This document shows positions 12,608 through 39,700 of a stretch of DNA of 64,000 nucleotides, piece by piece. The notes beneath the pieces were generated by a model. The model saw only the letters and a program-made list of their open reading frames with translations, ran no database searches and had not been told where the DNA came from. Both the position numbers and the translations under genes were made by a program. Origin of the DNA: Fragilaria crotonensis. Lineage: Eukaryota; Bacillariophyta; Fragilariophyceae; Fragilariales; Fragilariaceae. Within the stretch, counting starts at the first letter, position 1, and each line of letters begins with the position of its first letter. The stretch is from assembly GCA_022925895.1 (NCBI GenBank), contig JAKSYS010000199.1, positions 1-64,000 on the forward strand, in the 5' to 3' direction.

Positions 12608-15600
12608 TCAGAATATCTGCAAGCATTTCCTCAGTTGAGACTTGATGAATTGAAATTGTACCATCTTGAACCTTGCTTCTGAAATGATGATACTTTGTGT
12701 TGATGTGACGCGCGTGGGCGCATTTTCGATTCTTGACGCTGAAGCCAACTCAACTGCACCACTGTTGTCCTCAAAAACCCTGCAATGAAGATGAGGTGTT
12801 GTTGCTGTTAGGCCACATCCATGTTGTTGCATCTCTTGTACCAACTCCATCAATGGAAGCACTTCTCTGGTAGCTGCTGAAATTGCCAAATATTCACTCT
12901 CAGTTGTTGACAAGGCAATCTCTGACTGAAGCTTGGATGCCCAGATGACTGGACAATTGGCATAAAGAATCACATAACCAGTCCTTGACCTTGCTGTGTC
13001 TGAATCCCAATCTGCAACTGTTGGATCCCAATCTCCAGTGAAGGAAGCATCAACATAGACATCAAAGCTTTGGTTGCCTGGAGAATAGATCATTCCCTTG
13101 TCCTTTGAACCAACCAGGTACCTGCCCAGCCATTTCAATGCTTTGCCATGTTCAAGTCTTGGGTTAGAAACAAACCTTGCTCCTTGGTGAACTGCACAAG
13201 AGATGTCAAGCCTGGAACATTTTTCGAGATAATTCATCTGTCCAATGACTCGGCGATAATTGAAATGATCATCAAAGGGAGGAGACTCCAAATGCCTGCA
13301 CAAAGTCTTGCTTGAGGCTCCAGTTGTTTTCTTGATAGCCACATTCTTCCCATCCAAGCGCAATTCCTTGATGACATCATTGATGAGGTGAGGCTGAGAA
13401 AGGTTGAAAGTGTTGTCATTGATTCTGTCAATTTGAACCCCAAGGAAGTCTGAGATGTCTCCTTCCACAGTGAGCTTGAGTCCAACTGCTTCCATCTCTT
13501 TGACGATGTTATCCAATTCTTGAGGGTCTGGTCCAGCCAAAATGGAATCATCAGTGTAAAGAACAAACACTGACTTGCCTTTGTAGAATAGGCATTCATC
13601 AACTTGACTTGGAATGAACCCAACTTCCTTGAGCTTGTCCACCAGATGCTGGTTCCACACTCTGCCTGCTTGCTTCTGCCCAAAGAGATTCTTCTTGAGC
13701 TTGAGGACAAAGTCTTGAGCTTCACCTTCCACTTCAAAACCCTTTGGGATGGCCATGTAGAGTTCACATTCCACATCTGCTTGAGTATAGGCCAACACAA
13801 AATCAATCTGCTTGGTGTACCAACCATGAATCAGGGTAGTGATGAGCACCATTCTGATGGCTGCCCAGGATGCCACAGGTGAGAATGTTTCCCAATAATT
13901 GACTCCTTCCTCTTGTTTGGATCCATCAATGTTGAGCCTGGCTTTCCACTTGTAGACTTCACGCTGTAGCAATTCGACGCTTGCGCTTCATTGCCCACAC
14001 TGCTGGAAGGATCTTGGTTCCTTGAGGGACTGAGGACCTTGGTACCAACTCCCAGACTTGATTTTCGGTGTGACTCATGACTTCTTTCTCCATTGCCTTG
14101 ATGAACTCGGCGCGATCCGGCTCCCTCATGGCCTCATGGTAGTACATCGTGTCGGGGTCCGCGGAGGCGGCATAAGCAAGCATGGGATGCAGCTCTCCTC
14201 AATGTCCATCCACCTTGATGGTCTCAAAGGCCACATGATAAGGAAGCTGGTCCTCCAACTTGGCTTCCAGGTTGTACCAAACATCAAAAACCTTGGACTC
14301 TGGCTTGTTGGAAGGTTCATCAGAGGTCTTGTTGAGTCTTGGAGATCTTCTGAGTTGAACTTGAGGTTCTTGATCCTGTTCTCCCTCAGAAACTGGAAGT
14401 GGGGTTTGAGATGCTTGTGCTTCTCCTCATTGACCGATTCTCCAGGTTCCAGATCAAATTCCATGAATGGGACACCCTGTTGCAGACCTTGAGCTTGAGC
14501 TGGTTGCTTGATGTCTTGAAGCCTGGAAGTGGATGAGGCTTTGAACCCACATAACTTCTGCCAATCTGAGGGTGGAGACAAGTTTCCCAATGAGTGCCTG
14601 ACTGTTTCAAACTTGGGATCAAAGGTGACATGGAATTGAGGTGATACATGGCCTGTCTTGAGGTTGAGAACCAAAGCCACACTCCTTGCATGCTGCATGG
14701 ACATTCCCAGGTAGACTCCCATCCTGATCTGACTTCCACTTGGGTAGCTTCTTTCCAGATTGCATCTTGTTGTCAAGGACAAAGACAGGACATCCAAAAG
14801 GCTGGAAGTGATTCAGATTTGGAGTGACTTCAGACTTGGCAAACAATTCGAACGGCGACTTGAGGTCTTCCTTCCCGAGGAAGCTGTAGAGTTGTGAACT
14901 TCATTGGCAACCCTGAGGGCATAGGGCCACAGATGAGCATCAATTGCCTTGGGCCACCTGTGTTGAGCATGGATGAGCATGGTCCTTGCTTGGTCTTGTA
15001 AAGTCCTGATCCTCCTTTCTGCCACTGCATTCTGGAAATGGGCATTGACCCCACAGAAAGTGATGGTTTGACCTGCCTCCTTGATGGCTGCCATGAACTT
15101 GTTCTCTGCAAACCTGCCATTGTCAGCTTGGTAACTCTTGATCTTGACATTGAACTTGGATGCATACCTCTCAAATGCCAGCTTTGCTTCAAGAGTTTCA
15201 TCTGCATTGGTTGACTTCTGAAGGTGGATGTAAGACAAACCACTGAAATGATCAACAAAGACTGTTGCCACCCTGTACCTTTTCTTGGTAAGCCAACCCT
15301 TGATTTGGGCAATGAGCCCTGGAGTTGTGGACTCCAACTGATCAACACTGATGCACTGTCCGGGCTCCTAGCTGTCCTGAGCTTGCCACCTTGTTGTCCA
15401 AGTTTGGGCTTGGTTCTCCAGGGTCTCCTGGTGGCCTTCCCATACAAGCAACTGGTGCAAGTTGGGATTTGGCATGTTGCCAACTTTTGGGAGCAAACCA
15501 CTCTTGGCCATGCTTTGCATCTTGGCTCCTGACATATGATTCAGCTTGTGATGCCAGCGAAGGAATTCTGCAGCAGGTTTCTCTTGGAAAGTAGCATCCT

Positions 15601-18643: not shown

Positions 18644-21600
18644 TGCTGGTGATAACCCGGGTTCCTCCCGTCGTCTGCTGGATCGACCCGATGGGTGTCT
18701 CCTGCTCCGATCCCGGGATTCTGTCCAGTACCCGCAGGACTAGGGATGCCAGCCTCCGCACAGGACACATGACACTGTCCCCTGTCCTCTCTTGGGTGCG
18801 CTTGTCCATCTTGAGCCCGTTCTTCTGGTTCTCGAACGTGACCGTTACTCGGCGGGCCATCGGGAGCTCTTGTCTTGATGAGTGGGGGATCTCCCGATGC
18901 GTCGCGTCTCGGAATACTACGCACTTGAGACGTATGATCTTGGTTCTTCCTGGGGTGGTCGTCGCTGTGATCTCACACGAACGCATCGCGAAGAAGTAAG
19001 CCGCGATCGCTATCTCGGCAACGACCGCTTCGCGTGTGTCTCGTCCTGCTTCCGTTCCAGCACCTGATTGCTCAAACAGTGCCCGCAAGAGCTGGGGTGT
19101 CGCGGCTTTTTGCTTTCGTTTCGGTGGGTCGGTGTTGTCGCAGGCCTTAAGCCAGTCCCTGACGAAAGGTCGCATGTTCGGGGATCCCTTGATGTGCAGG
19201 GGGCTGCTCCCGATATTGCCCCGAAACGCCGCAGCCAGGTTGCTTGCGGTTTTGCGCAGAGTACTCGCGACCACTGGCTCGCGACGATCTCCCTTAGGTC
19301 TCCCCCCTGGGTCCCATTCGGCTTCTCTGTAGAAGCCGAGGAATGACCGGAGGAAGAGGTCTCGCTCGTTGTCGGATAACAGAGTGAGGTAGGGGTCATC
19401 TTCGTACCCAACGTGACGGCAGTACCCAATCCACCGTCTCCAGGTTCGGTCGTAAGCTTCGTTGCTGCTTTCCTGCCGACCGTCAAATATGACTCTGCGA
19501 CTCGCAGCACTTGCGTGGTCCAGGATAGTATCTCTTCCGGTAGCTGTGAGATAGCGAAGTTCTCCGGCACCTGAGATGGATACGATGTGAGGAACCGGCG
19601 GGTTAGTTCGTCGTTTGCAGGCATGTCTGCTGCGATAGGATGTTTCTTTCCTCGCGAGTCGTCGCCAGCGAAAGATAGCAAGTCGGCGACCACGTTGAGT
19701 TCGCCTTTCAGGTGTTGCGAGGCGAGGCAACACTTGTGCTCGATCAGCAGTTCGGCTATCTTCCTCGCTACCTGGAGGTGGGCCTTTTGTGCTTCCCATC
19801 TGGTTTCCAGGCGGGACGAGTTGTGGAGCCACCCGATCGCCGACGTGTTGTCACCGATTGCCAGGATGCAGTGTTCCCCCCCATCGGACTCGCGACACGC
19901 AAGCCAGACATTAATAGCCATTCCCAAGAATTCGAGCAGGTTGTTTATTCCCTGGTGTCCGAATATTGGACTGGATTTCGGGATTCGGAGGCGCCAGGCT
20001 CGTCCTGACAGGCTGTACCCTCCGAGTCCATACGGGCAAGCATCCGACCAGCAGATCTTGTCCGGTTCCCTCGTAACCAGTAGGTTCATTGGTACTCCTT
20101 GATTCGCGTGCTTGAGGAACCCTTCCCAAAGAAGTAAGTCATCCAGTGCCTCGGGTCCTACTTTCTTTCTCCGCCCCCCTCCGCCGCACTCGAGTCCCAT
20201 CCTGATTCGGCTCATGAAATGGCGGGAGTTTGGGATGATATAGGCGGTGTGGTTTAACCGTCCCACCAGCGTCTCCAGCTCCTTCGTCGGACAATGACCG
20301 GCGGCCCTAAGTTTCCTGATGTCCTCAACCCAGGCGAGGTACTTGTCGTCGGGTAGGGAGATCTCGAGGAGTCGCGTGTTAATCCTCCACCCAAGCACGA
20401 TCTGGACCTCCTCTGGTCGTCCTTCTGCGATGAGTTTTGGGATGGATAGAATCGGTCTGCGAGGTATCGGCTCATGCTCGTCGCCCGCGTGGGGGCGGCT
20501 CGTCAGGTGCATGGCGAGTGGCACGATGTGCGGTTGTCTGAGGCAGTTCGCCGGGGTGTCTAGGAACACGTTTATCAGGTCGTCGATGAACCCATCGACT
20601 CGGCCTCCGGCTTTGGTCGGCGGGATGTTGATTGCCATCCGTCGGGCCTGGACGATGGGGACATGGTCCGGGAGTCGCAAGGGTTCGGGGGTTGATGGTT
20701 GCGCTGGGCTCCTGTGTTCGGTTGGGTCCCACTCGTCACACTGCGCGATTTCGTTTGCCAAGTCGGTGACCAGCTCCGAGAACATACACCACGTTGGTGG
20801 GTTGGGGGAACCACCAAAGGTGAGCCTCAACGAGAGGAAGGCGGTGCTTCCATTGATTGCGATGGTCTGCGAGGTGGCGGTTGAGCTGTGTGCAATGCGT
20901 CGGTACGCGTCACTGTAATCGTACTTGCTTATGAGTATTAGCAGTGCCGGGTTCTGCGAACGCAAGGCGACGATGAAGTGGACGATGCGAGGTAGACACC
21001 ATCCGTACACCATGTCGACGTAGGCCGACATGTCGATACGGGAATTGATGGAGGTCGGCTCCGACCCGCGCCCTGTTGAGAAACTCAGGTCTTGGGTAAG
21101 TCTGAACTTGGCCTTCCTCGCGCCGTCTTGGTCGACCGTCCACTGCTGGACCAGTCCAAGTGGCTGTACCATGGCTCCGGGGATCGACTGAACCGTGGCA
21201 ATCGGTATCGGTATCGTGAACCCGTGGGTGACGTCCTTGGCCAGCAGCTCTCCCACACGGTCCTGCTCCTGTTGGGCCGACTTGTGATTCCCCCTGGCCA
21301 GCATGGCCGTCACTTCGTCTCCCCTCTCCTGGGAGCTCAGCTCCCTGTCGAAAACGTACTGCATTCCTTCCGTGAGGAGAGTCTCGAGTCGAGGGAAGTG
21401 GGGGTGTCGTCCAATGAGTGGGCGGAGTTCGCTGACCTTGCGAAACTCCGACCCGAAGCCGATGGTCGACGAGTCGAACGCCTGGATTAGGCGGCCCAGA
21501 TCGAAGTCGAAAGACTTCAGTAACTCCGCGTTGTGCGCTGACGCAGCCTCTGAGACCTCGAACCGAATTGGGGACTTTGTGGGCACCTCCGAGGGTGCTG

Positions 21601-22585
21601 CACAGATCGCCTTGATTGCCTCCAGAAACCAGGCTGGCGGCCTGAACTCATCGCACGGGCCGCACGGTGGCTCCCGGAAGAAAAGCGCGGCGTCGCTCGG
21701 CAGGTGGACTTCGTCTCCGTACGAACTCACTATTCTCGGGTACTCACCTAAGGTTTCCCGATCATTCACGTCCGATTCCCTGAGGCGTTTGGCGTTTCGC
21801 TCCTCCCCTTTTGTGACAATCATGGGCTCTCGGCGGCTGGTGGTCTGCCTCTGTTTGAGGCGCGCTGCGGGGCTGAGGACGCTCCTAACGCGTTCGGCGG
21901 CGCTCGTCGTGAGGTGGCCACTTGGTTTTGGGCCCTCCCCTTTGTCGGTCGACTCGGGGGTCTGGTACGTTGGGAGCTTCGCTAGTCCTGGTTGAGGTTG
22001 GCTCGTCTCCTTTTCTACGGCGTCTGTGGTAACCGCGACCTCGGTAGTACTCCGGGCTGCTTGTAGAGTACCTTCGTACCGCAGCCTCGACCGCCGGGCC
22101 GACGCGGCGTCCGCCATGAACGTCGTTTCCGAGGCCGGGTTTCCCCCGTTTCGGTACTGGTTTCCGCCTTTCGTCGAGTGAATTCCCGACCCCTTGTGGG
22201 CCATATCGGCCCTGGCGACCGGCGGTGTCGCGCCATGCTGGGGGCCGTACTGGTCCCCGGCTGTCAGGCTGCACGCCTCGCCTGTTGTCGATCCTGCCGG
22301 TGTGGCGGTGTTCTCGTTTGGGCCATACTGGTCCTTGGTTAGGCTTCGCGCCTTACTGGTCGCGCCATGCCCTGGTGCCGCCTTACTGGCTGATCTGTTC
22401 CCCCCACCAGTCCCCATACTGTGGACTGCTGGTTGTGTTCCGGCCTTCTTACTGAGGTCCGGCTCCCGCCCTGGTTCCGCCCTGTGTGTCCGTCGAGCCA
22501 TTGAATGAACGTTTGAGGACGACGAGCGGGGTGGGTGGGTGGAAAATAGGCGTGGTGGGCCATCGGGGTCGGGTGATGGTGGCAC
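18644..22585 (-). mobile_element. Reverse transcriptase, RNase H and proximal tyrosine recombinase (YR element 2)
   Basis: A long minus-strand open region. Reverse transcriptase motifs include ISKYDYSDAYRRIA and a FIDD catalytic box (VDGFIDDLINVFLD, near 20,580). RNase H follows, with CWSDACPYGLGGYSL and AIGDNTSAIGWLHNSS. The proximal recombinase part (core-binding domain, from about 19,830 down) overlaps the end of the polymerase region, as gene overlaps do in this class. The N-terminal third of the polymerase protein is low-complexity and Thr/Gly/Pro-rich. Fossil element part. Confidence 0.82.
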
Positions 22586-22600
22586 CGATGGCCGACGCCT

Positions 22601-24721
22601 TCAGGTGTTGTAGACGACCTTGAATCGTGCGGTCGCGGTTTCGCGAGCGCTATCGGGCATGTCAATGGAGGTGATGTGGGCGAGGGAGCAGTTCTGTTGG
22701 CATTTTCCCGTTGACTGGAACCGCACGCACATGGGGGCTTTCTGCGTCTTGTTGAGCTGCTTGGAGATACGTGTGTCCAATAGCACAGGCCACCCTTTTA
22801 GGCCGGGCATCTTGGTGCCGAAGAGGTCCAGGTAGTCGATCCCTTCGGGTAGCTGCCAGGCGGCGACGGGTGCGGTGTTTGAGTGGGCGACAGCGTCCCG
22901 CACCACCGAGGGCGATGCGATTGCGGTCGGCTTTTTCTTCTTTGCGGCTTTGTCTCCTGTCGCGACCGTCCCCACGCGCTTGGTTTTGTCCGCGGTCGTG
23001 GCAGTCGCGCTCAACGCGACCGGTAATACGACGTTCAGTCCCTGGCCGTCTTCTAGTCGTTCGATCAACTCCTCTGCTTTGTTGGTGAGGTACCGGGATT
23101 GTCCTTCCGTTGCTATGTCCTCCCACCTGGTGACCTTGTTGAAGAAGGTTTGGAGGTGTCGATCGAGGGCGTAGCAGAACTTCGCGCCAAAGTCCGTCTC
23201 CGACTTGAATCGGTCATTGAGAACGGTGGTCAGTTGTCCCCATCGACGCGCGTCCAACACGTAGGCTAGGCCCTTGCCCGCAATTGTTCCGTCGCAGGTC
23301 AAGAGTTCCAGCATGTCGAGCGCGGTCTGGAGCTGCACTCGCAGGTCGTGGGGCGTGTTCGGGGTGTAAAAACCCTGTTTCATGTAGAACTCTAGGGTCG
23401 CTTCGTCCACGTCCATCCCCAGGTACTCTCGCAGGAGTTCGTTTCCGCCCCTGCTTCCCTTTGATCCAAGGTCGACTGTCTTCGGGTGGAACATGAATAT
23501 GGTGAACCCGCCCGGGTTTGCTCTGTTGGGGTCCTGGGAGAGGAAACCATTTGACAGCATCTTGTGGAAGCCGCCGACGGAGAAGGTTCCTTCCCAATCC
23601 CGTGTCTCGGACTGTATGAGGTTGATGGCCTTCTGAGGTGTTTTGCTCGTCGTCAGGTTCATCATGAACTCCGTCATCGTGGGCTCGACGCTCATCCGCG
23701 CGGTGCAGAGAGAAGTGAACAGTCCGCGCTGAGTTGGTCCCATGGTCTTGAGGATCGACTTCTCGGTTTCCTTCTTCTGTCGGTCCGAGTCGGCTCCTTC
23801 CTGAAAGCGGCTGAGGAGGGCGACCATGCTTTGTGAGGAGGCCGCCATCATTTCCATGCTCGCGTTCCCCTCTCCCTGGGCGTCCGCGTTTCCCGCGACC
23901 GTCCTTCCTGTTGTGGGGCGGGCTACGGCCCCTGTGAGCTTCCCCCTGACTCCCCGGATTAGGTGACTCATCATAGTACTCTCGGGGACGTCGACGAGGC
24001 GGATTTCCCTGAGCATTCCCTGTTCCGATGCCCATAAGAGGGCTAGTATGTCTTCCAGCCCCGCGGCCTCCGCTTCTCTCTCCGTGCTGATCACGTCGTC
24101 GTCGGCCGCCGCGATCTGGAATGCTTCGATGATGGCAAATGCGAGGTCCTTGGCGGAGACCAGCTTGGCTCCCCCGACTTCCTCGAAGGTGCTAGTGGTG
24201 ATGAGGCAGTGATTGGGTCGTCTCTCTAGGATTTGGTTGCCTTCGGCTACGAGCTCGGCGAACTCATCCGGTGACTCGGCCGCCATCATGCTGTCCAGGG
24301 AGGGGACAGCGGCTCCTCCTCTACCGGGTCCTTCCACGTCTCCGCCTTCGTTGCTCACCAAGGCGGGGGAGACTAACTCGTCTCGGTCTACGGTCTTGAA
24401 TGTCGTGGTGTCGTCGAGGTTTCCGTGCGCGAACGCGAGTGAGAATCCTGTTTCGGTATTGCAGGCAAATCCGTGGTGGATGAGTTGCATTGTCCCTTTA
24501 TTTCCTGGGACTAGTAGCATGTTTCCATAATCGCTCCCGGTGATTGTTTCCGTAAGCTTAGCGACGCTGTTGAGATGCCCTTCTGTCTTCCTGGCCATCG
24601 TCTCCATGTTTGTCTCGAAAAGCACCTGAAAAGGTCCTCCGTCGTTCTGGTTTCGGGCATAAAATTCTGTCCACTTGTTAGTAGAAGCAGGTTCTCCTGC
24701 AAAGCTGACCATGGGAGCCAT
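22601..24721 (-). mobile_element. Gag-like protein of YR element 2
   Basis: One open frame of about 706 residues starts four bases inside repeat A1. Close to its C-terminus is a C-x8-C-x3-C-x3-H motif (CVRFQSTGKCQQNCSLAH), a CCCH knuckle suited to RNA binding. A basic KKKKP patch lies shortly before it. No enzyme motif is seen. Position and finger suit the structural protein of a YR retroelement. Fossil element part. Confidence 0.75.
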
Positions 24722-24724
24722 TGA

Positions 24725-25086
24725 AAATTAAACAGTTAGGGGCTAAAGCTATTGGCTTGGTGGTTGGGATGGCACAGTTGATTCACGATGGTGGCTCGAT
24801 GTGTGCAAAGTTTCCCACTCCAGCTTGCTGGATCGGCGAATTCACGTTGATGTGCGGTTCGGTATCCAACGGTGAATCGTGGTTGTGTCCGTATCCGGCA
24901 CGTATGTCCGCATATGACATGCCGATATGAGATGCCGAAACGAAATTTCGTGGCCCGGTGCCGACACGAAATGCCGATAGTGTGGGACCGTTGGTACCCC
25001 CTCGATAGTGCTACTGTCGCTTCCCAGTGTGGTAGTGTTAGTAGTGCTGGAGACACAGTACTGTGCTCTCACCCCAGACCATGTAA
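24725..25086 (-). repeat. Split direct repeat A1 of YR element 2 (right border)
   Basis: 362 bp, matching 10977-11338 with about one difference. Its right edge directly touches the CCCCAGT terminus of the PiggyBac-like transposon. Confidence 0.9.
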
Positions 25087-25094
25087 ACCCCAGT

Positions 25095-25151
25095 ATTTTT
25101 TGTCGCATGGCATGCGACAAAAAATCTTCCGAGTTTTGGGATATCCCAAAA
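25095..25151. repeat. Twin palindromes in left end of PiggyBac-like element
   Basis: At 25095-25125 two perfect 15-nt arms (ATTTTTTGTCGCATG and its complement) surround a single G. At 25134-25151 TTTTGGGATATCCCAAAA is a perfect 18-nt palindrome. Both lie within 65 bp of the terminus, and the GTCGCA word recurs near 25190, 28840 and 29040. Confidence 0.8.
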
Positions 25152-25455
25152 TTTTTGTCCTACGAAAAAGCTAGCGAGAAATTTCGTGCGACAAATGTTT
25201 TTCAGCGATTCTCATTGATGCCAACAATTGAAGTTCGCTTGTTGCCCCTTGCATGCATTCCAGAGACCAGTTGTGCACCCTGTCTCCGTACTAAAAGTTC
25301 AGGTCTTTGTACACTGTAGGTTCTACATACGGTAGGTATTATCTGTAGACCCTCATACAGAGGTGTATGTGCACTTTGAAGTGCGCAGCAACAACAAGCA
25401 CCCGCCATTGCATCAACAAGAAATCAATTCTTGCTCTTGAAAGGTCCCCTCAATC

Positions 25456-28400
25456 ATGTCAAACAACAGTGATGGTGGCGATGAAAGTGACTCTGATCTT
25501 GAGGATATGATGTATTTGATGTCTGGTTCAGCTGGTGATGCTGATTTGGATGATGCAGACGACGATGAGGAACCGATAGGAGAATGGAACTTCATCAGAG
25601 AGTTTGAGACAACTATCGAGATCGATGTAGTAGACCGACATCTGCTGGAGGTGGCCCGCCAGGAGGTACCAATTGTCCTTAACCGTCTGAAAGCCAAGAT
25701 GTTTGGCGGAAGAGTCAGGAATCTGTGGAAGGTTGAACCTGCTCGTTTTTTAGAGGCGTGGATGGATGCTAATTTGCTGGGACATATCAAGCAATTCATC
25801 AATAAGAACTTATCTCGGGATTCCGTCTCGAATTCAGAGATACTTGCCTTCATTCGGATTGAATTGATGCTCTCATTCTACCGAGTCTCCCCTTCGTTGT
25901 ACTTTGATATGGATGAGCGAGCAAATTTTCCATCTGCAGGACAGGGTATGGACCTCATTCGATACCGAGAGATCTTGAAGGCTTTGTCACGGTCTGGCAC
26001 TTCAAGGCAGGAATCAGCATCAACTTGGACACCTCCTATGCAGCATGACAGAGAAATGGCTGCAGCAATGGAAATTGTTCGTTCAACTGGGTCAGAGCTA
26101 GCTTTTGTTGCAGGAGTGACCCAAGTTGGTTTGGACGATGACTTACTTCGGATGCGATCAAAGAGGGTCATCAATCACGGGTTCTCACAGATCAACAACC
26201 CTGCAAAGGGTTAGGAGTCATTCATCATGGAGCAGTGTCAGTGGTCACTGGTTTGTATATTGGCGGGCATGTTGCAGCTCGGGGTGAGTCAACTTTGGAC
26301 TGTGTGAAAATATTGCAGAGGAGTATGACAGGCGTATCATCCGAATCGCAAATCCGACTCGATGGCAACACTTTCTTCTGGGATCGAGGATATGGTGGAG
26401 TGAATGGAGAAGTCAACCAGTGGAGTGTGTCGGTTGGAGCTATGCTTTTGGGAACAACAAAGAGAATGCGATCGTTCCCTTTTACATACGACCAACATCC
26501 GGGCCCAGACCGGCGGCTTATTGCAGAGAAAGGTGCATCAGCCCATTATTGGGCTACGAAGGCGATAAGAAATGGTTCAAGAGTTACACATCAATATGCA
26601 CTGGCCAGTCGAAACGGCTTAGGCCGGGTGGTTCTCATGCAAACGACTGATGACAGGTACGGACCGGGAAAGTTTACCCTTGTAACCCGACAACGAGGAT
26701 GCGATGTCGCTCCAGAACCTACAGATGATGAAGTAATTAGACTGTTTGAAGCAGACCATGTTGAGCAGCTGACAGATACGCAACGATCTCCAGAATGGTT
26801 CAACCAGCGTCAGTTTTGAATTACTGGAACCACTGCTCTTGCACTATGGAAGCGCTATGCGCATCGGGCTCGTTACACCGCCAGTGTCACCAGTGGAGGG
26901 GAGCTGTCGCACAATATCCTGTCAAGCTGTAAAATACTTGGGTTGAAATGCTCGAATGAACTCATTCCAAATGAGGCTGTGGCTGATCGGATTTACAGTA
27001 GACATGAGTTAGTGGGGTTGTCGGTTGCACACCTAAAAGATATTTGCCGAGCGAAATCTCTGCTGGTGACAGGGAGCAAAACAATTCTCATTGATAGAGT
27101 GCTTTCATGGGGAGGATCTGATCAGTCAAACGGGGAATGCCCAATACTGGAACTTCTTCTGGAGAAGTGGTTTATGTCGCCCTTGCCTCATCGACCTCAA
27201 TGCGTGAAGGTACCCTCAATGAGTCAAATGTATTGTCAAGACTTCCCTGTTTCTTGATCAGGAAAGCGATTTCGTTGTGACACATATCAGGGAATATGGC
27301 TTGTTATGTGCAAAAGGTATGTTCTATGCAGCATTCTCGCCCGATGCGATTGCAGTTGCGGAGAACGAAAACATATTTGGCGAGGACGAAGGTATTCCTT
27401 TCATAGTGGAGATCAAGAGCAAATGCACCCCCGCAACAGTAATGAAAGAGACCGCATTGGCCAGGACCTACGGCACGTGTCCAACGATTTATGTTGTTAT
27501 GACGGATCCTCCTACGAACGACGACTTTAAACGAATGATTCCTGAGCCCGAGTACAGGTGTCAATTGTTGCATGGCATTGCATGTGGCAATCTGCGACAT
27601 GCTTTCTATGTGGTGGCATCATTGCACAAGATAATTCGTGTTGTTCATGTGAATGTTGATGAGCAGGTGGTTGAGCAATATCGATGTGCATTGCAAGAGG
27701 TACATGATCGTGAGCTTTCCTGGGTACTTCATGGTCGTTTACCGTGTTTGGGAGGAATGAAGCTGAGGCATGCAGTTGACGAGTACACTGTTCAAAATAC
27801 GTTGGAACTATGGAGAGCAATCTATAATCTTGTGAAGACCCGGGGCAGACCGTTGCCAGCAGGACGCATGTTGATTCCGACCATTGTAGCAATGTGGAAT
27901 CGAAGCAAAGGTCCTGTTGATGTGTTCTCGCGGTACATGAAGAACTGCCATGCTCGGCATGCACAGCTCTCACCATTGGCACACATATGGCTTCGTCTTC
28001 TGATGTCTCGAGTTTATAATGCATATCAGAGCTACATTCTCAGTCGCTCTGTTGCATTCCTGCTAAGTGATGGGTGCAATTTGTATGCTGCATTCCAGGC
28101 ACACCGAAAGCTGTATGGGTCTTTTTCAAAGTTCTGCAGTTCTCTTGCTAAAGACCTAACACTCGAGGTTTCAGGTGATGACAGCAGCGACAGTGAAGGA
28201 GGAGATGATGGTGGTATCAGCATCCAGCAGACGGGAGAAGGAAGTGTTCTGAACACAAGCGGAAGGTCTTTTACATACAACAAGCGCGAGCTGTACTTCA
28301 CAAGTCGCGAGATGATTCAAAGACGATTGGACCAGTCATTGCCACATGTTCTATGCAAAGTGGAATCGAAACCAACAAGCTGTGTCTGGTGCTGCAGAAA

Positions 28401-28632
28401 GAGGCATGATCAACCAGATCCGAAGCACTGCAGGCATGGTCGTACGACGAAGTTCATGTGTCCTGTGTGCATGGTCAGCCTTTGTCGTGTCAAGCGTTTC
28501 AACGGCATGAGCTGCCATGAGTTATTTCATACAAGCAGATCATTGGTAGACTATTGCACAGCCGAGATGGATGCTGTGGTTCACGTCATCCGCATCGAAA
28601 CCGACCACCACCTCCGAATCGAGGTTCAGTGA
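25456..28632 (+). pseudogene. PiggyBac-like transposase with inserted SAP and PD-(D/E)XK nuclease motifs
   Basis: The protein starts at ATG 25456 with an acidic N-terminus, then an N-terminal PiggyBac-type helical region (ILAFIRIELMLSFYRVSPSLYF). Candidate catalytic Asp motifs are GLDDDLLRMRSKRV and FFWDRGYGG, followed by GTTKRMRSFPF. Before the last catalytic segment (WNRSKGPVDVFSRYMKNC) there is a SAP-like motif (LVGLSVAHLKDICRAKSL, about 27,010) and a YqaJ-like nuclease motif (FYAAFSPDAIAVAE then FIVEIKSK, about 27,330-27,420). The C-terminus has a Cys/His cluster (CVWCC...CPVCMVSLC...CHELFH) like the PiggyBac C-terminal finger. Three lesions are apparent: a one-base shift near 26,205, an in-frame TGA at 26,817, and a one-base shift between about 27,190 and 27,260. 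All are small, so the copy is recent or the lesions are assembly errors. The family assignment is by motif only. Confidence 0.65.
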
Positions 28633-29065
28633 ATCCAGATGATTCTTCTCAGGAAAACGAGGAGCCACCTCGCAGAGTTCGATCTCGGATTACTCCTGTG
28701 GTAACACGAAGACTTCGGAGATCGCTGAGACCAAGGAGAGCTCCAATACGGCGGTTTTAAGACTGAACATCATTGTGTCAATGTGATCACCGCGAGTCTC
28801 CTCGTGTTAATTTTTCAATAGTCGTATTTTTTTTTGTCGCATGCTAGCTTTTTTTCGTGCGAACTCCGAAAAAAAATTGATGAAGTTTGCAATGTTGTAC
28901 CTTTGCGAGCATCATGATTAGGAAGTTATCCTCACAGATGTAGGAAGAAGGTTAAAAGCATTACAGATCGCACTTTTCAGAATCAAATGGTTGTGGGTTG
29001 TTCCTCCGTTATTGGGTTTCAACATTTTGTCGTCTTTTTTGTCGCACGGAATTTTCGCACTGGGG
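28633..29065. other. Right non-coding end of the PiggyBac-like element
   Basis: Holds a basic, RRLRRSLRPRR-like stretch in another frame just after the transposase stop, then the T-run/GTCGCATGC region near 28,828-28,880 and the right terminus. No further gene is seen. Confidence 0.5.
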
Positions 29066-29386
29066 TTAAAAGATCGTATCTCAACAACTATGCATACCGA
29101 TCCAAAAACGCGCATCTTGATAACCTGTATTCTACTTGAATGTGACTTCAAACGTGTACTGAGGCATAAGCAAGGCAAATGAAGAGATCAAAAGAAATCG
29201 GATTTATGAAAAGGAAACTGAATTCAGTGCATTTAGACTGAATTCAGTGGGGTTGAACAGAATAAATTTTCTCGTATTTACTGGTAGTAGTAGCAGACCT
29301 ACCCTGTGGCAACATTTGAAATGTTCTCCGTGTTCCGTGTGATAGGAGCACGCCTTCAGTGTACTGTCGTACTGTACTCATTCACT

Positions 29387-29419
<33 letters not shown>

Positions 29420-29532
29420 GAGTATGGAGTATGGAGTATGGACCCTCAGCCCTCATCAGCCTCAGCCCATCACTCACTCCTCACACCTCGCACACATATT
29501 TCACATACACCTCTCAAACGAACAACTCGTCC
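29066..29532. other. Upstream region of the dehydrogenase-like gene with a 7-bp microsatellite
   Basis: Contains eight units of a 7-bp repeat at 29387-29442 (four GTATGCA, then four GTATGGA). A pyrimidine-rich leader follows up to the ATG at 29533. The reading frame is open through the repeat, but the encoded peptide is low-complexity, so I treat it as 5' untranslated. Confidence 0.55.
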
Positions 29533-30531
29533 ATGACCTCTCCGGTCCTCTTGCGGTCGACACTTCAAAGGTTCTTCCGCCAGGAAGAACATAACTTATC
29601 GAAGTCACCCATCCTGCTCATATCGTCCCTTCCAGAGTCGTCCAAAGCAGGAGTTGTGGAGAAAACGATTGAGACTTCGATCGACGGGTTGAAATTTTAT
29701 GGCCAACAACAGCTGGGCTTACCTGTGTTTACGACGCAGATTCGTTCGGCGTTCTGTACCTCCATTGATATTGAGAATGTTCAGAAACTTAAGAAAAGAA
29801 CGGGCGCGTCCATTATTATTGGTGCTGGCTCTGGAGCTGCCATGGATCTGGCAAAAGCCGCTGTTGAGACACGCCAAGGTGACGAAAAACTCTATCTCTT
29901 TCCGTCCACGAGTGCTGCTGTCTTGGCGTCGTTCACTTCGATAAGTCTAGTTCTTGATACGAAGGAAGAAATTATTATCATGAAGGTTCGGCAAGGAGAT
30001 AATGCAATGGTTGTAGTTGACGAGAAGGATCTACCTGTTGTTGTACATCCGCACGCACTCGCCGCTTGTCAAGCTATCCTTTTGGATGCAGCACTTCGCG
30101 ATGACAATATCGACCTTTCCAAGGCCATGACTTTGATGGAAACACTTCAATACACCGCTGCAAATCTATCGACTGGTCTTGGTGATCAAACTAGAAGTGT
30201 TCCGCTTTGCCTAGCGTCATCGCTAATCCCTCCGTTGTTTTCGTCAACTCACATATTCACGTTTTGGGCCAGTCTGGTGCCTGCTCTCATGATGAACCAT
30301 GCACGAGCATTGGCCGCCGGTTGTGATAGTGTTAGTGGTGATACCCTACTCTCAACGTTGAAAGACGAGGATCCCGCAGTTTATCCTGCTCTTGCGGCAC
30401 TCGCACTCGAAGCGCAATCCGTGGAAAGCATGTTGCAGCACATAAGGAACAACCAATTCACGACACGTGATGTTCATGATGTCAGCGACGAGGTATTGAT
30501 TCAAGTGTTGTCGACCAGTTTAAATCGATAG
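29533..30531 (+). CDS. Iron-containing alcohol dehydrogenase-like protein
   Basis: A protein of 332 residues if ATG 29533 is used; an in-frame upstream ATG at 29359 would add a low-complexity leader encoded by a microsatellite. The segment ASIIIGAGSGAAMDLAKAAV (residues about 92-111) fits the nucleotide-binding GGGS-x-x-D-x-AK motif of the iron-dependent alcohol dehydrogenase / glycerol dehydrogenase superfamily, and the PSTSAA segment after it fits the next conserved strand. The protein is shorter than usual (about 380 residues), and I cannot point to a full set of His metal ligands, so activity is uncertain. A shortened copy lies at 42,716-43,253. No other host gene adjoins it; it sits between DNA transposons. 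Confidence 0.65.
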   Translation: MTSPVLLRSTLQRFFRQEEHNLSKSPILLISSLPESSKAGVVEKTIETSIDGLKFYGQQQLGLPVFTTQIRSAFCTSIDIENVQKLKKRTGASIIIGAGSGAAMDLAKAAVETRQGDEKLYLFPSTSAAVLASFTSISLVLDTKEEIIIMKVRQGDNAMVVVDEKDLPVVVHPHALAACQAILLDAALRDDNIDLSKAMTLMETLQYTAANLSTGLGDQTRSVPLCLASSLIPPLFSSTHIFTFWASLVPALMMNHARALAAGCDSVSGDTLLSTLKDEDPAVYPALAALALEAQSVESMLQHIRNNQFTTRDVHDVSDEVLIQVLSTSLNR

Positions 30532-30767
30532 CACATACCGGAGTCGTACTCCGAGTATGTCTTCTATCAAGAAATCAAAAACAATAGATGTGCAACACGA
30601 ATGCTCACTTTGAAGCAATTCGCGATCGAAATGTCACGGGCACAATGAATACTCCGATTATGTATTCCATCAATAAAAACAATAGATGTATAATACGAGC
30701 ATGCACTTTGAAGCGCATCGCGATTGAAATGTCACGGGGAGAAAGGCAGAAAGGGAAGGGATTAGAA
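30532..30767. repeat. 3' flank with tandem duplication of about 100 bp
   Basis: The segment around 30,558-30,645 (TCTATCAAGAAATCAAAAAC ... GAAATGTCACGGG) is followed by a diverged second copy at about 30,662-30,741. A related single copy lies at 43,285-43,370, downstream of the shortened gene copy, which shows that the duplication included the 3' flank. Confidence 0.65.
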
Positions 30768-36793: not shown

Positions 36794-39700
36794 TCAACCA
36801 CACCAAGCAGAAACTTTTGATTTCTTCACTTTGCCTACAGGGCATGATGACACCACTTCCCCGATGGGTGGTGGTTTCTCGGACGCAAGGTTTGCCTTTT
36901 CAACAGAAATAAGCTTGTCAAGAGCTTCCTCAACCGCTAGTCCTCGCTCTCGGCAGTTTTTTGATGCCGCAACAATACTCACTAGCTCCTTTACTCTTGG
37001 CATGAACATGTCGTATGGATTGTACAACAACGAATCCGGGAACTCGTCCTGGTGGTGAACACGTGATCCAAAGTCAATACAATCACTATCCACTTTGGAT
37101 TCGATGAGCCAGGCATCATCATCGTCATCATCGTCATGGTAATTGTCACCACTGCCACCATCATGACAGTCATCACACAATTCATGCTGCAAATGAACTT
37201 CTTGGGACATGGAGATGGGAACATTTGTTGAACTGTGCTTAAGGGCAACCATCACCTCATCCCGTGAGTAGTTTATTACCCGGTTGATTACAGAGTCTTT
37301 TTTTGAAAAGTAATGCTAGGCAGCGTTCTGTTGCATTCCGAAATGTATCATTCGAATTCTGTCCAAATTGATACACACGACAAAATGATGAAACTGTGTG
37401 GTCATAAATCTTTTCTGAGAAGGTAGGTCCTTGGCACTCATTTCCTCGAAGTGAGTCCAACTCTCTTTTTATGTCGGCCTCAGTGGATGAGCAATCGTGG
37501 ACATTCTTCATTGCAAAGTACAGATATGCTTTCCACCAACGTACTGAAATGTCGTGGTGAGTGATCATGGACTTGGCCGCATAGTACATCTTTACATGTA
37601 CCAAATGCTGGCAAACCATGCCATTGCATTCAAAGTATTTGCAGTCACACAGGAGACAGCCACGATCCTCAAAAGAATGCAAAGTAACGGTGTAGACTCT
37701 ATGAAAACGGGGTACCAATGAATGCACCTCCCGTTCAACAGACCTGACAACAAGCCACCTGTCCTTGCTTGTTCTCCAAGACGCATAGTTCTCGCACTCC
37801 CGAATAGCAAATTTCAACATGAATTCTGCTGGGAGAGTTATGTCGTTGACAGTCATGGAGGTACTCCAGGTTGCTCTTCCTAGCAACACGGTAGCTAGAT
37901 CACGACGATAGAGGTCGAACTTGTTACAATCCATATCCAGCTGAATTTTGGCCGATTTGTCGATTGCATGCTGTGGAAGTACACGGGAAGGACCAGATTT
38001 GATGGCGTGATTGGTCCCTTCATGACCAGAGTTCGTAGTGGTCTCAAAGTGCCTAACGCCCTTCCGCAAGTAGAAGCAATAACTTTGCTCATGTGGGATG
38101 ATACAACCACGGATGAAGTCCAACAGTTTCTCTCCACCATCATCGCCAAAAATGGCCTTAACAACATCTGACTTCAAGTAAACAATTAATAGGGCCTTAC
38201 TTCTGTAGTCACATTGATCATGTTAGGTACAATCAACGACATACATGTGGAGACCCAAATAATTTGACTTACACTTCATATTCTTCTTTGGAATCTACCC
38301 CGCGGCGCATCCAGCTATACAGCCAGTTTTGAATTACTCTCACCTGACTTCTTGCAGCATCTCTCTTGCCCTTCTGAAAGCCTAAACCTCTACATTCTCG
38401 TCTCCAGCCTTGATGAACAAGATGCCATCCACAGCGACTACGAACTGCATTGACAAAATACGTTGCAATGGCATAGTCGACCTGCGCCATTTCTTGGGAG
38501 TCGCCATCTGTCATGACAAGCTTAACCAACCGCAATGTTTGAGTACCTAAGAGCAGAGGAAGGGCTTCTTGAAATAACCAACGGAACAACCAAGATCTTT
38601 CATTTGGGGCAAAGCATCTGACCACTACCATCACATTTCCGTCCGAGTCCTTGACAGAAAGTGTAAGCAAGGGTCTGCTTTCATTGTTTGTCTCATGCGT
38701 CCCATCGATGCAAACGACTTCTGGAAAGGCTTGAAAGAGACGTCTACCATCTGGCAACACCCAGCAACATGCAATAAGAATGTCCTGGTCGTCCCTTGCT
38801 CCGACTGAGTGCCTACTTCTCTGGGCATATTCCTTGAAATCGGCAGTCTCTGTGACCTCCAGAGGTACAGACTTATGGGCTGGGGCGCTTTCCATTGTGG
38901 TCACCATGGAAAGGCTGGTTAGATTAACCCCATCATCAACAGGATTGCCTTCGGTTCGTGCCGCCTTGCGATTTTGACCACGAATTTCTTTCGTATTCCC
39001 GTTATGATACAGACAGACAAATGATGCGCCAATTTTTGGAGATAATTCAGCATACTGTCTGACGGTGAAATATCAGAGGGTAGTGCAGCACCCTGAGGTG
39101 ACGAATCCATTAAATCTTGTGCCATTCGGGAAAACCTTGAACATAAGCCATCTGTCCGCGTGTAAATAGCTCACCAGTACTGCTTCGGGTGAACAATGCA
39201 GCTTGTGAGGGCAGGATATTGGCAGCAGCCATTGCAGCTGCATTTTCCAGGGTAGGAGCGTCCAGAAAACGTTTGCGATTGGTTATCTCGTTACGATCCA
39301 TGGGTGGGTGACCCCTATGCTGGTTGTCTCCGACCCCACAGACTAGATGGAAGCTGTACTGGTCCAGTCGGATGACAAGTTTTGCAGAACAAGTGCACCT
39401 TGTATCGCGTTGGGTGCAATTACGTCGTCGCAATGCCTTTCCTGAGTTATTGGAACCACGAGAGTTCTTTCTGTCACCAATATAGGTTGTCACACGATAA
39501 GCATCGGCTTGGGCACCATCCAAACGATGATGATACTTTCGGCCGTTACTGCACAACAAAACACGTTGGTCCTTGCAGGCTTTAGCACTACTTCCATTGG
39601 ATATCAGGGCACAGTTACCATGGGATCTGGCGGCTTGGCATAAATCAGTGATAAGTCTTTGGCCTCCAGAATCCTTGCCGAATCCTCCCACAGTAGGGTA

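Follow-up and report, generated by a model that had tools for sequence, protein, structure and literature searches.

A putative SAP-interrupted YqaJ-type nuclease within a decayed piggyBac-superfamily transposase of Fragilaria crotonensis

Introduction

Can a piggyBac-type transposase carry a second nuclease inside its catalytic domain, and what could such an enzyme contribute to the life cycle of the transposon? This question is raised by a locus of the diatom Fragilaria crotonensis, for which a sequence-only reading had placed a SAP-like helix pair and a YqaJ-type nuclease signature between the second and the last Asp motif of a piggyBac-like transposase, and had proposed that one protein combined TTAA-directed transposition, DNA binding and a second nuclease activity. 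In piggyBac, cleavage proceeds with hairpin formation and leaves complementary TTAA overhangs that are rejoined seamlessly (PMC7351741, in excerpt), and therefore no second nuclease is required. As far as the relevant extract of PMC4482050 goes, the YqaJ nucleases described in eukaryotic transposons are encoded as separate proteins, the function of which is unknown. Here the element is described in the context of the window, i.e. the whole stretch of 64 kb of DNA that was analysed.

Results

Ends and extent of the element

The locus forms a TTAA-type element of ~4 kb, which spans positions 25084-29069 (exactly 3986 bp counting both flanking tetranucleotides) and whose ends lie outside the region considered in the sequence-only reading (Table 1). 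The heptanucleotide CCCCAGT at 25088-25094 has an inverted copy at 29059-29065, with TAAA preceding the left copy and TTAA adjoining the right one. Judged from their sequence, these ends appear to comprise the TTAA target duplication and the short terminal inverted repeats of a piggyBac-superfamily transposon, in agreement with the TTAA-directed character that had been proposed. The 12-mer TGCGACAAAAAA occurs four times within the 64 kb, always inside the non-coding ends of the element. Taken alone, the 7-nt repeat next to TTAA is a mild departure from chance, 35 of 2000 Markov shuffles reaching it. The terminal and subterminal repeats together reach a score of 19 versus a maximum of 16 in Markov shuffles (0 of 5000 reach 19), a statistic that was picked once the repeats were already known. 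With a threshold of E 1e-3 the window yields no second DNA copy of the element, and no protein match to the element elsewhere in the window is better than E 0.36.

Table 1. Features of the element, with positions in the window
Feature	Position	Strand	Remarks
Left transposon end	25084-25094	+	TAAA (one change relative to TTAA), then CCCCAGT
Subterminal palindrome containing TGCGACAAAAAA	25095-25125	+	Arms 2 × 15 nt, 1 base between
Transposase piece 1, frame 1	25456-26211	+	Open frame; Pfam DDE_Tnp_1_7 match at 25738-26004
Piece 2, frame 0	26211-26816	+	FFWDRGYGG (26373-26399) through to first YqaJ motif
YqaJ motif 1 (QRSPEWFNQRQF, stop, ITGT)	26781-26831	+	Counterparts of lambda exonuclease Trp24, Arg28
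In-frame stop TGA	26817-26819	+	
SAP domain, inside the putative nuclease	27012-27107	+	PF02037, E 4.6e-7, 29.8 bits; curated cut-off 23.9
Frame-2 piece with GTLNE (27209-27223)	about 27203-27256	+	Glu85 counterpart picked by eye
Last piece, frame 1	27259-28629	+	Contains the putative nuclease core, the third Asp motif and the cysteine-rich end
YqaJ block holding SPD and VEIK	27316-27423	+	Counterparts of lambda exonuclease Asp119, Glu129, Lys131
YqaJ third block (IPEPEYRCQLLHGIACG...)	27538-27699	+	PHROG 434 match at 27541-27699
Third Asp motif MWNRSKGPVDVFSRYMKN	27892-27945	+	By eye versus piggyBac YYNQTKGGVD; profile score not significant
Cys/His-rich C-terminal stretch resembling a zinc domain	28381-28533	+	By eye; no Pfam match
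Additional subterminal repeat copy TGCGACAAAAAA	28830-28841	-	
Right subterminal repeat TGCGACAAAAAA	29035-29046	-	
Right transposon end	29059-29069	-	CCCCAGT on the - strand, plus TTAA

Two adjoining long open frames of 1191 and 706 aa on the - strand (19010-24721) are retroelement-like by eye, with reverse transcriptase/RNase H-like motifs; neither product matches a Pfam family at E 0.01, and the 706-aa protein shows a CCCH-like end, again by eye. Nesting of the element inside this neighbouring retroelement was considered and rejected, only one 19-nt match spanning the element (E 0.41). A Copia-type reverse transcriptase is found at 12611-13972 on the - strand (RVT_2, 8.9e-39), and a MULE-type transposase fragment at 38272-38907 on the same strand (MULE, 2.5e-12; ZSWIM1-3 RNaseH-like, 3.8e-13). 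Immediately to the right of the element lies an open frame on the + strand (29359-30528) with an iron-alcohol-dehydrogenase match of 2.7e-4, which is under the cut-off. An adjacent pair of direct repeats of about 90 bp each, 79% alike, occupies 30547-30738.

Reading frames and decay

The transposase gene, on the + strand, is broken: it contains one in-frame stop and changes frame at least three times. Frame 0 is used from 26211 to about 27203 and is broken solely by the TGA, which stands three residues past the conserved Arg of YqaJ motif 1. A possible basic tail in another frame extends up to 28760, as judged by eye. Introns were rejected as an explanation of the frame changes, since the shifts allow no space for any, and the copy is therefore read as decayed. 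A poor assembly is disfavoured, since neighbouring intact open frames reach 1191, 706 and 390 codons. The first frame change (26198-26214) lies at a site that by eye has the formal pattern of a -1 slippery heptamer, directly ahead of a stop, and probably reflects decay; programmed -1 frameshifting at this site was dropped as an explanation, since the stop and more shifts come after it. The gene is a single decayed copy.

Transposase

The first piece matches the Pfam family DDE_Tnp_1_7 with E 2.8e-6 (27.3 bits versus a curated cut-off of 22.4), the match covering profile positions 2-95 of 349 only; the earlier assignment to the piggyBac superfamily is upheld by this result. By eye, five segments can be recognized in the order in which they occur in piggyBac, i.e. 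LDDDLLRMRSK, FFWDRGYGG, VGAMLLGTTKR, GRVVLMQTTDD and MWNRSKGPVD, the first of which has piggyBac IDEQLLGFRGR as its counterpart. In the piggyBac chain of PDB entry 6x67 the other four correspond to ITCDNWFTS, TIVGTVRSNKR, MVYLLSSCDED and YYNQTKGGVD, respectively. The element also has a counterpart of N440, the Asn with which piggyBac contacts TTAA (PMC7351741, in excerpt). Of the catalytic residues D268, D346 and D447 of piggyBac, the second and third were found by motif, the second as DRGYGG at 26382-26399 (+ strand), and the first is absent from the expected position: the stretch that should hold it (26214-26267, + strand, aligned by eye) contains no Asp. The missing D268 counterpart may be a later change in the dead copy. 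A two-sequence HMM of piggyBac and piggyBat, applied to the region bounded by the second and third Asp, gave no significant score for this middle part of the transposase: it picked the NRSKGPVD block with -0.6 bits, which is below the scores of shuffles (up to 4.3, with 364 of 1000 reported) and of other window chunks (up to 3.8).

Putative nuclease and nested SAP domain

The motifs on which the sequence-only reading was built are all present on the + strand and in the order given there, i.e. DRGYGG, LVGLSVAHLKDIC (27009-27047), SPDA (from 27337), VEIKSK (27406-27423) and GPVDVFSRYMKN (27910-27945). The putative nuclease occupies the part of the transposase that is flanked by its second and third catalytic Asp, and the motif series W..R, G..xE, SPD, ExK and Q occurs there in order, with G..xE assigned by eye; for the latter GTLNE, in frame 2, was chosen by eye as the counterpart of lambda exonuclease Glu85. 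Among the lambda exonuclease residues with counterparts in the element, Glu129 is presumably part of the active site. The same role is described for Glu85, Asp119 and Lys131, and Trp24 and Arg28 form the 5'-phosphate pocket (PMC7496540, in excerpt).

Comparison with a profile of 12 aligned phage lambda-exonuclease/YqaJ proteins (lambda exonuclease and 11 others) points to a nuclease of this type. The profile HMM recognizes two blocks in the correct order with a score of 5.7, to be set against a maximum of 3.0 in 1000 shuffles (365 reported) and a best score of -1.1 among 240 six-frame chunks taken elsewhere in the window. An HH-alignment yields three ordered blocks, in which residues 6-22, 176-229 and 263-275 of the query are paired with profile positions 9-25, 91-131 and 140-152, respectively. 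Each block is weak taken singly; their sum amounts to 68.5 versus a maximum of 38.3 in shuffles, none of 300 reaching the observed sum. PHROG 434, a RecE-like exonuclease family, is matched with E 0.0021 on 27241-27780 and with E 0.034 on the longer segment 27241-28629. Pfam YqaJ (PF09588) gave no match at E up to 10 in scans of window segments, and for this reason the nuclease is called YqaJ-type and not a plain member of the YqaJ family. The other weak Pfam matches in this region (Spermine_synth, 0.018; DUF5365, 0.02-0.06; REase_AHJR-like, 0.23) are all under their cut-offs. Two single-sequence AlphaFold models have mean pLDDT values of 33.5 and 33.3 and are unusable, and sequence searches of the PDB with two window segments gave no credible match. 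Of the three domain profiles expected from the sequence-only reading, DDE_Tnp_1_7 and SAP exceed their cut-offs and YqaJ is not matched.

The SAP domain, which had also been proposed earlier, sits between YqaJ motif 1 and the G..xE piece. These two motifs are separated by about 125 residues here, compared with 45 in lambda exonuclease; the enlarged spacing and the position of the SAP match within it indicate that the SAP domain lies inside the nuclease. YqaJ motif 1, which reveals this nesting, is absent from the sequence-only reading. The placement of both domains between the Asp motifs stands, and their arrangement side by side is replaced by a SAP domain nested within the nuclease. By motif alignment the graft appears to come after the insertion domain and to take the position of a piggyBac β-hairpin, residues 426-433; in piggyBat this hairpin has 11 additional residues (PMC11707139, in excerpt). 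Both graft borders are in frame. One open stretch, 26211-26816 in frame 0, leads from the second Asp into YqaJ motif 1; another, 27259-28629 in frame 1, takes in the putative nuclease core, the third Asp and the cysteine-rich end. Because long open frames span both borders, a later accidental insertion is unlikely.

These features make it likely that the transposase had acquired, in frame between its second and third Asp, a lambda-exonuclease/YqaJ-type PD-(D/E)XK nuclease interrupted by a SAP domain. This architecture has good sequence support, derived from one dead copy. As to the proposal that one protein combined all these parts, the motifs and their order agree with it; a single open frame is not found, the gene being broken and the copy dead.

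Discussion

Comparison with known systems

The element resembles piggyBac from Trichoplusia ni (PDB entries 6x67 and 6x68) and piggyBat (9c0f) in its N-terminal Pfam match, in the second and third Asp motifs as recognized by eye, and in the NxxKGxVD motif, the TTAA-type ends, the palindromic subterminal repeat and a C-terminus that by eye is Cys/His-rich. It differs from both in that about 400 residues of YqaJ and SAP sequence are added between the second and third Asp, that the first Asp is not located, and that the gene is broken. With the lambda exonuclease/YqaJ/RecE family (PF09588; PDB entries 1avq and 3sm4) it shares the ordered motifs, the first in the form W...R...(S/T), but in the element the SAP domain separates the first from the second motif, the nuclease is fused to a transposase and Pfam does not recognize it. 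In Tn7, a PD-(D/E)XK nuclease likewise partners a DDE transposase, TnsA cutting the second strand for TnsB; unlike the arrangement described here, the Tn7 proteins are not nested, and TnsA/TnsB are bacterial, with a nuclease of another family. The ISL2EU (Harbinger-like, PHIS) elements are, like the present one, eukaryotic DNA transposons that encode a YqaJ nuclease besides a DDE transposase (PMC4482050 and PMC9179366, both in excerpt). According to the same excerpts, their nuclease is a separate open frame, their transposase belongs to another superfamily, and their target is A|AT|T and not TTAA.

Relatives were not found in viral, prokaryotic, phage or plasmid collections, which were searched mostly with short exact peptides, with a motif pattern and the pattern of the transposon ends for the viral collection, and with tblastn of one segment for phages and plasmids; since these queries were mostly short exact peptides and the collections only non-eukaryotic, the searches say little on the spread of the architecture. 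One locus of the viral collection (L001) matched with 44% identity over 42 residues (E 5e-4); its open frames indicate a phage-like contig, its record matches neither PF09588 nor PF13843, and the similarity is ascribed to chance. Another (L002), found by pattern match only, has a best tblastn E of 0.80 and was set aside as chance. No fusion of piggyBac with a nuclease or with SAP is reported in the titles and abstract openings that were covered, a scope outside which Repbase reports and most subscription papers fall.

Origin and role of the graft

The explanation that best accounts for the locus as a whole, and that we consider probable, is a decayed autonomous TTAA-flanked piggyBac-superfamily transposon with a grafted YqaJ-SAP module to which resection is tentatively assigned as its role. 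Two alternatives concern the origin of the middle region. It could be a long unrelated insertion domain in which the resemblance to YqaJ motifs is coincidental, in line with the silence of the Pfam YqaJ profile, the lack of a predicted fold in the models and the weakness of the single blocks; the ordered series of three blocks, equalled by none of the 300 shuffles, and the independent match to PHROG 434 make this quite unlikely. Alternatively, a separate YqaJ-SAP gene might have been inserted by chance into this one piggyBac copy. With a single known copy, comparison leaves room for such a private insertion, yet open frames cross both borders, and we regard an event of this kind as highly improbable.

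Other alternatives accept the architecture and differ in the function of the graft. The nuclease may have served in second-strand processing or in donor-site repair. In the former case it would take over second-strand cutting at the transposon ends in the manner of TnsA, replacing the hairpin step of piggyBac, which would suit its location next to the catalytic site and the position of D268 being without an Asp. However, piggyBac alone cuts both strands via hairpins (PMC7351741, in excerpt), and lambda-exonuclease-type domains work from 5' ends, with the counterparts of the 5'-phosphate pocket kept in the element; second-strand cutting is accordingly judged unlikely. Equally small is the chance that the graft acted as a DNA-binding or structural module devoid of nuclease activity in this lineage. 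Such a module would be compatible with the absence of a Pfam YqaJ match, with the distance of the sequence from the phage enzymes and with the DNA binding contributed by the SAP domain, but counterparts of Asp119, Glu129 and Lys131 have been retained despite the decay. Resection of the donor break, taken by itself, is a tentative assignment that we hold with rather low confidence.

In the preferred explanation, the nuclease and SAP domain of the intact ancestor would have been joined in frame to the catalytic domain, apparently after the insertion domain near residues 426-433. The piggyBac core and the putative zinc domain would recognize the transposon ends and TTAA, while the SAP domain would bind flanking or target DNA, and the nuclease would attack the 5'-phosphorylated ends produced by excision. 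Repair of the resected donor break from a homologous template that retains the transposon would then restore the element. Lambda exonuclease binds the 5' phosphate and favours ends bearing a short 3' overhang (PMC7496540, in excerpt). The fit to resection is imperfect, because the excised donor site gives 5' phosphates but a 5' overhang. A more far-reaching proposal, which we think improbable, is a two-nuclease piggyBac in which resection of the 5' ends would block seamless rejoining and repair from the sister or homologue would copy the transposon back, resulting in a built-in gain of copies. In a bolder form of this two-nuclease proposal, the RNase H-like site would be permanently without its first Asp, and the graft would do part of the cutting.

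Implications

If intact relatives confirm the architecture, the element would represent an unusual transposase with two nucleases. A nuclease located beside the catalytic site would be tied to the transposition complex, and control of donor-break repair by such elements would become testable. It would also follow that a whole enzyme domain can be accommodated in the loop behind the insertion domain of piggyBac, which would be useful for the engineering of this transposase.
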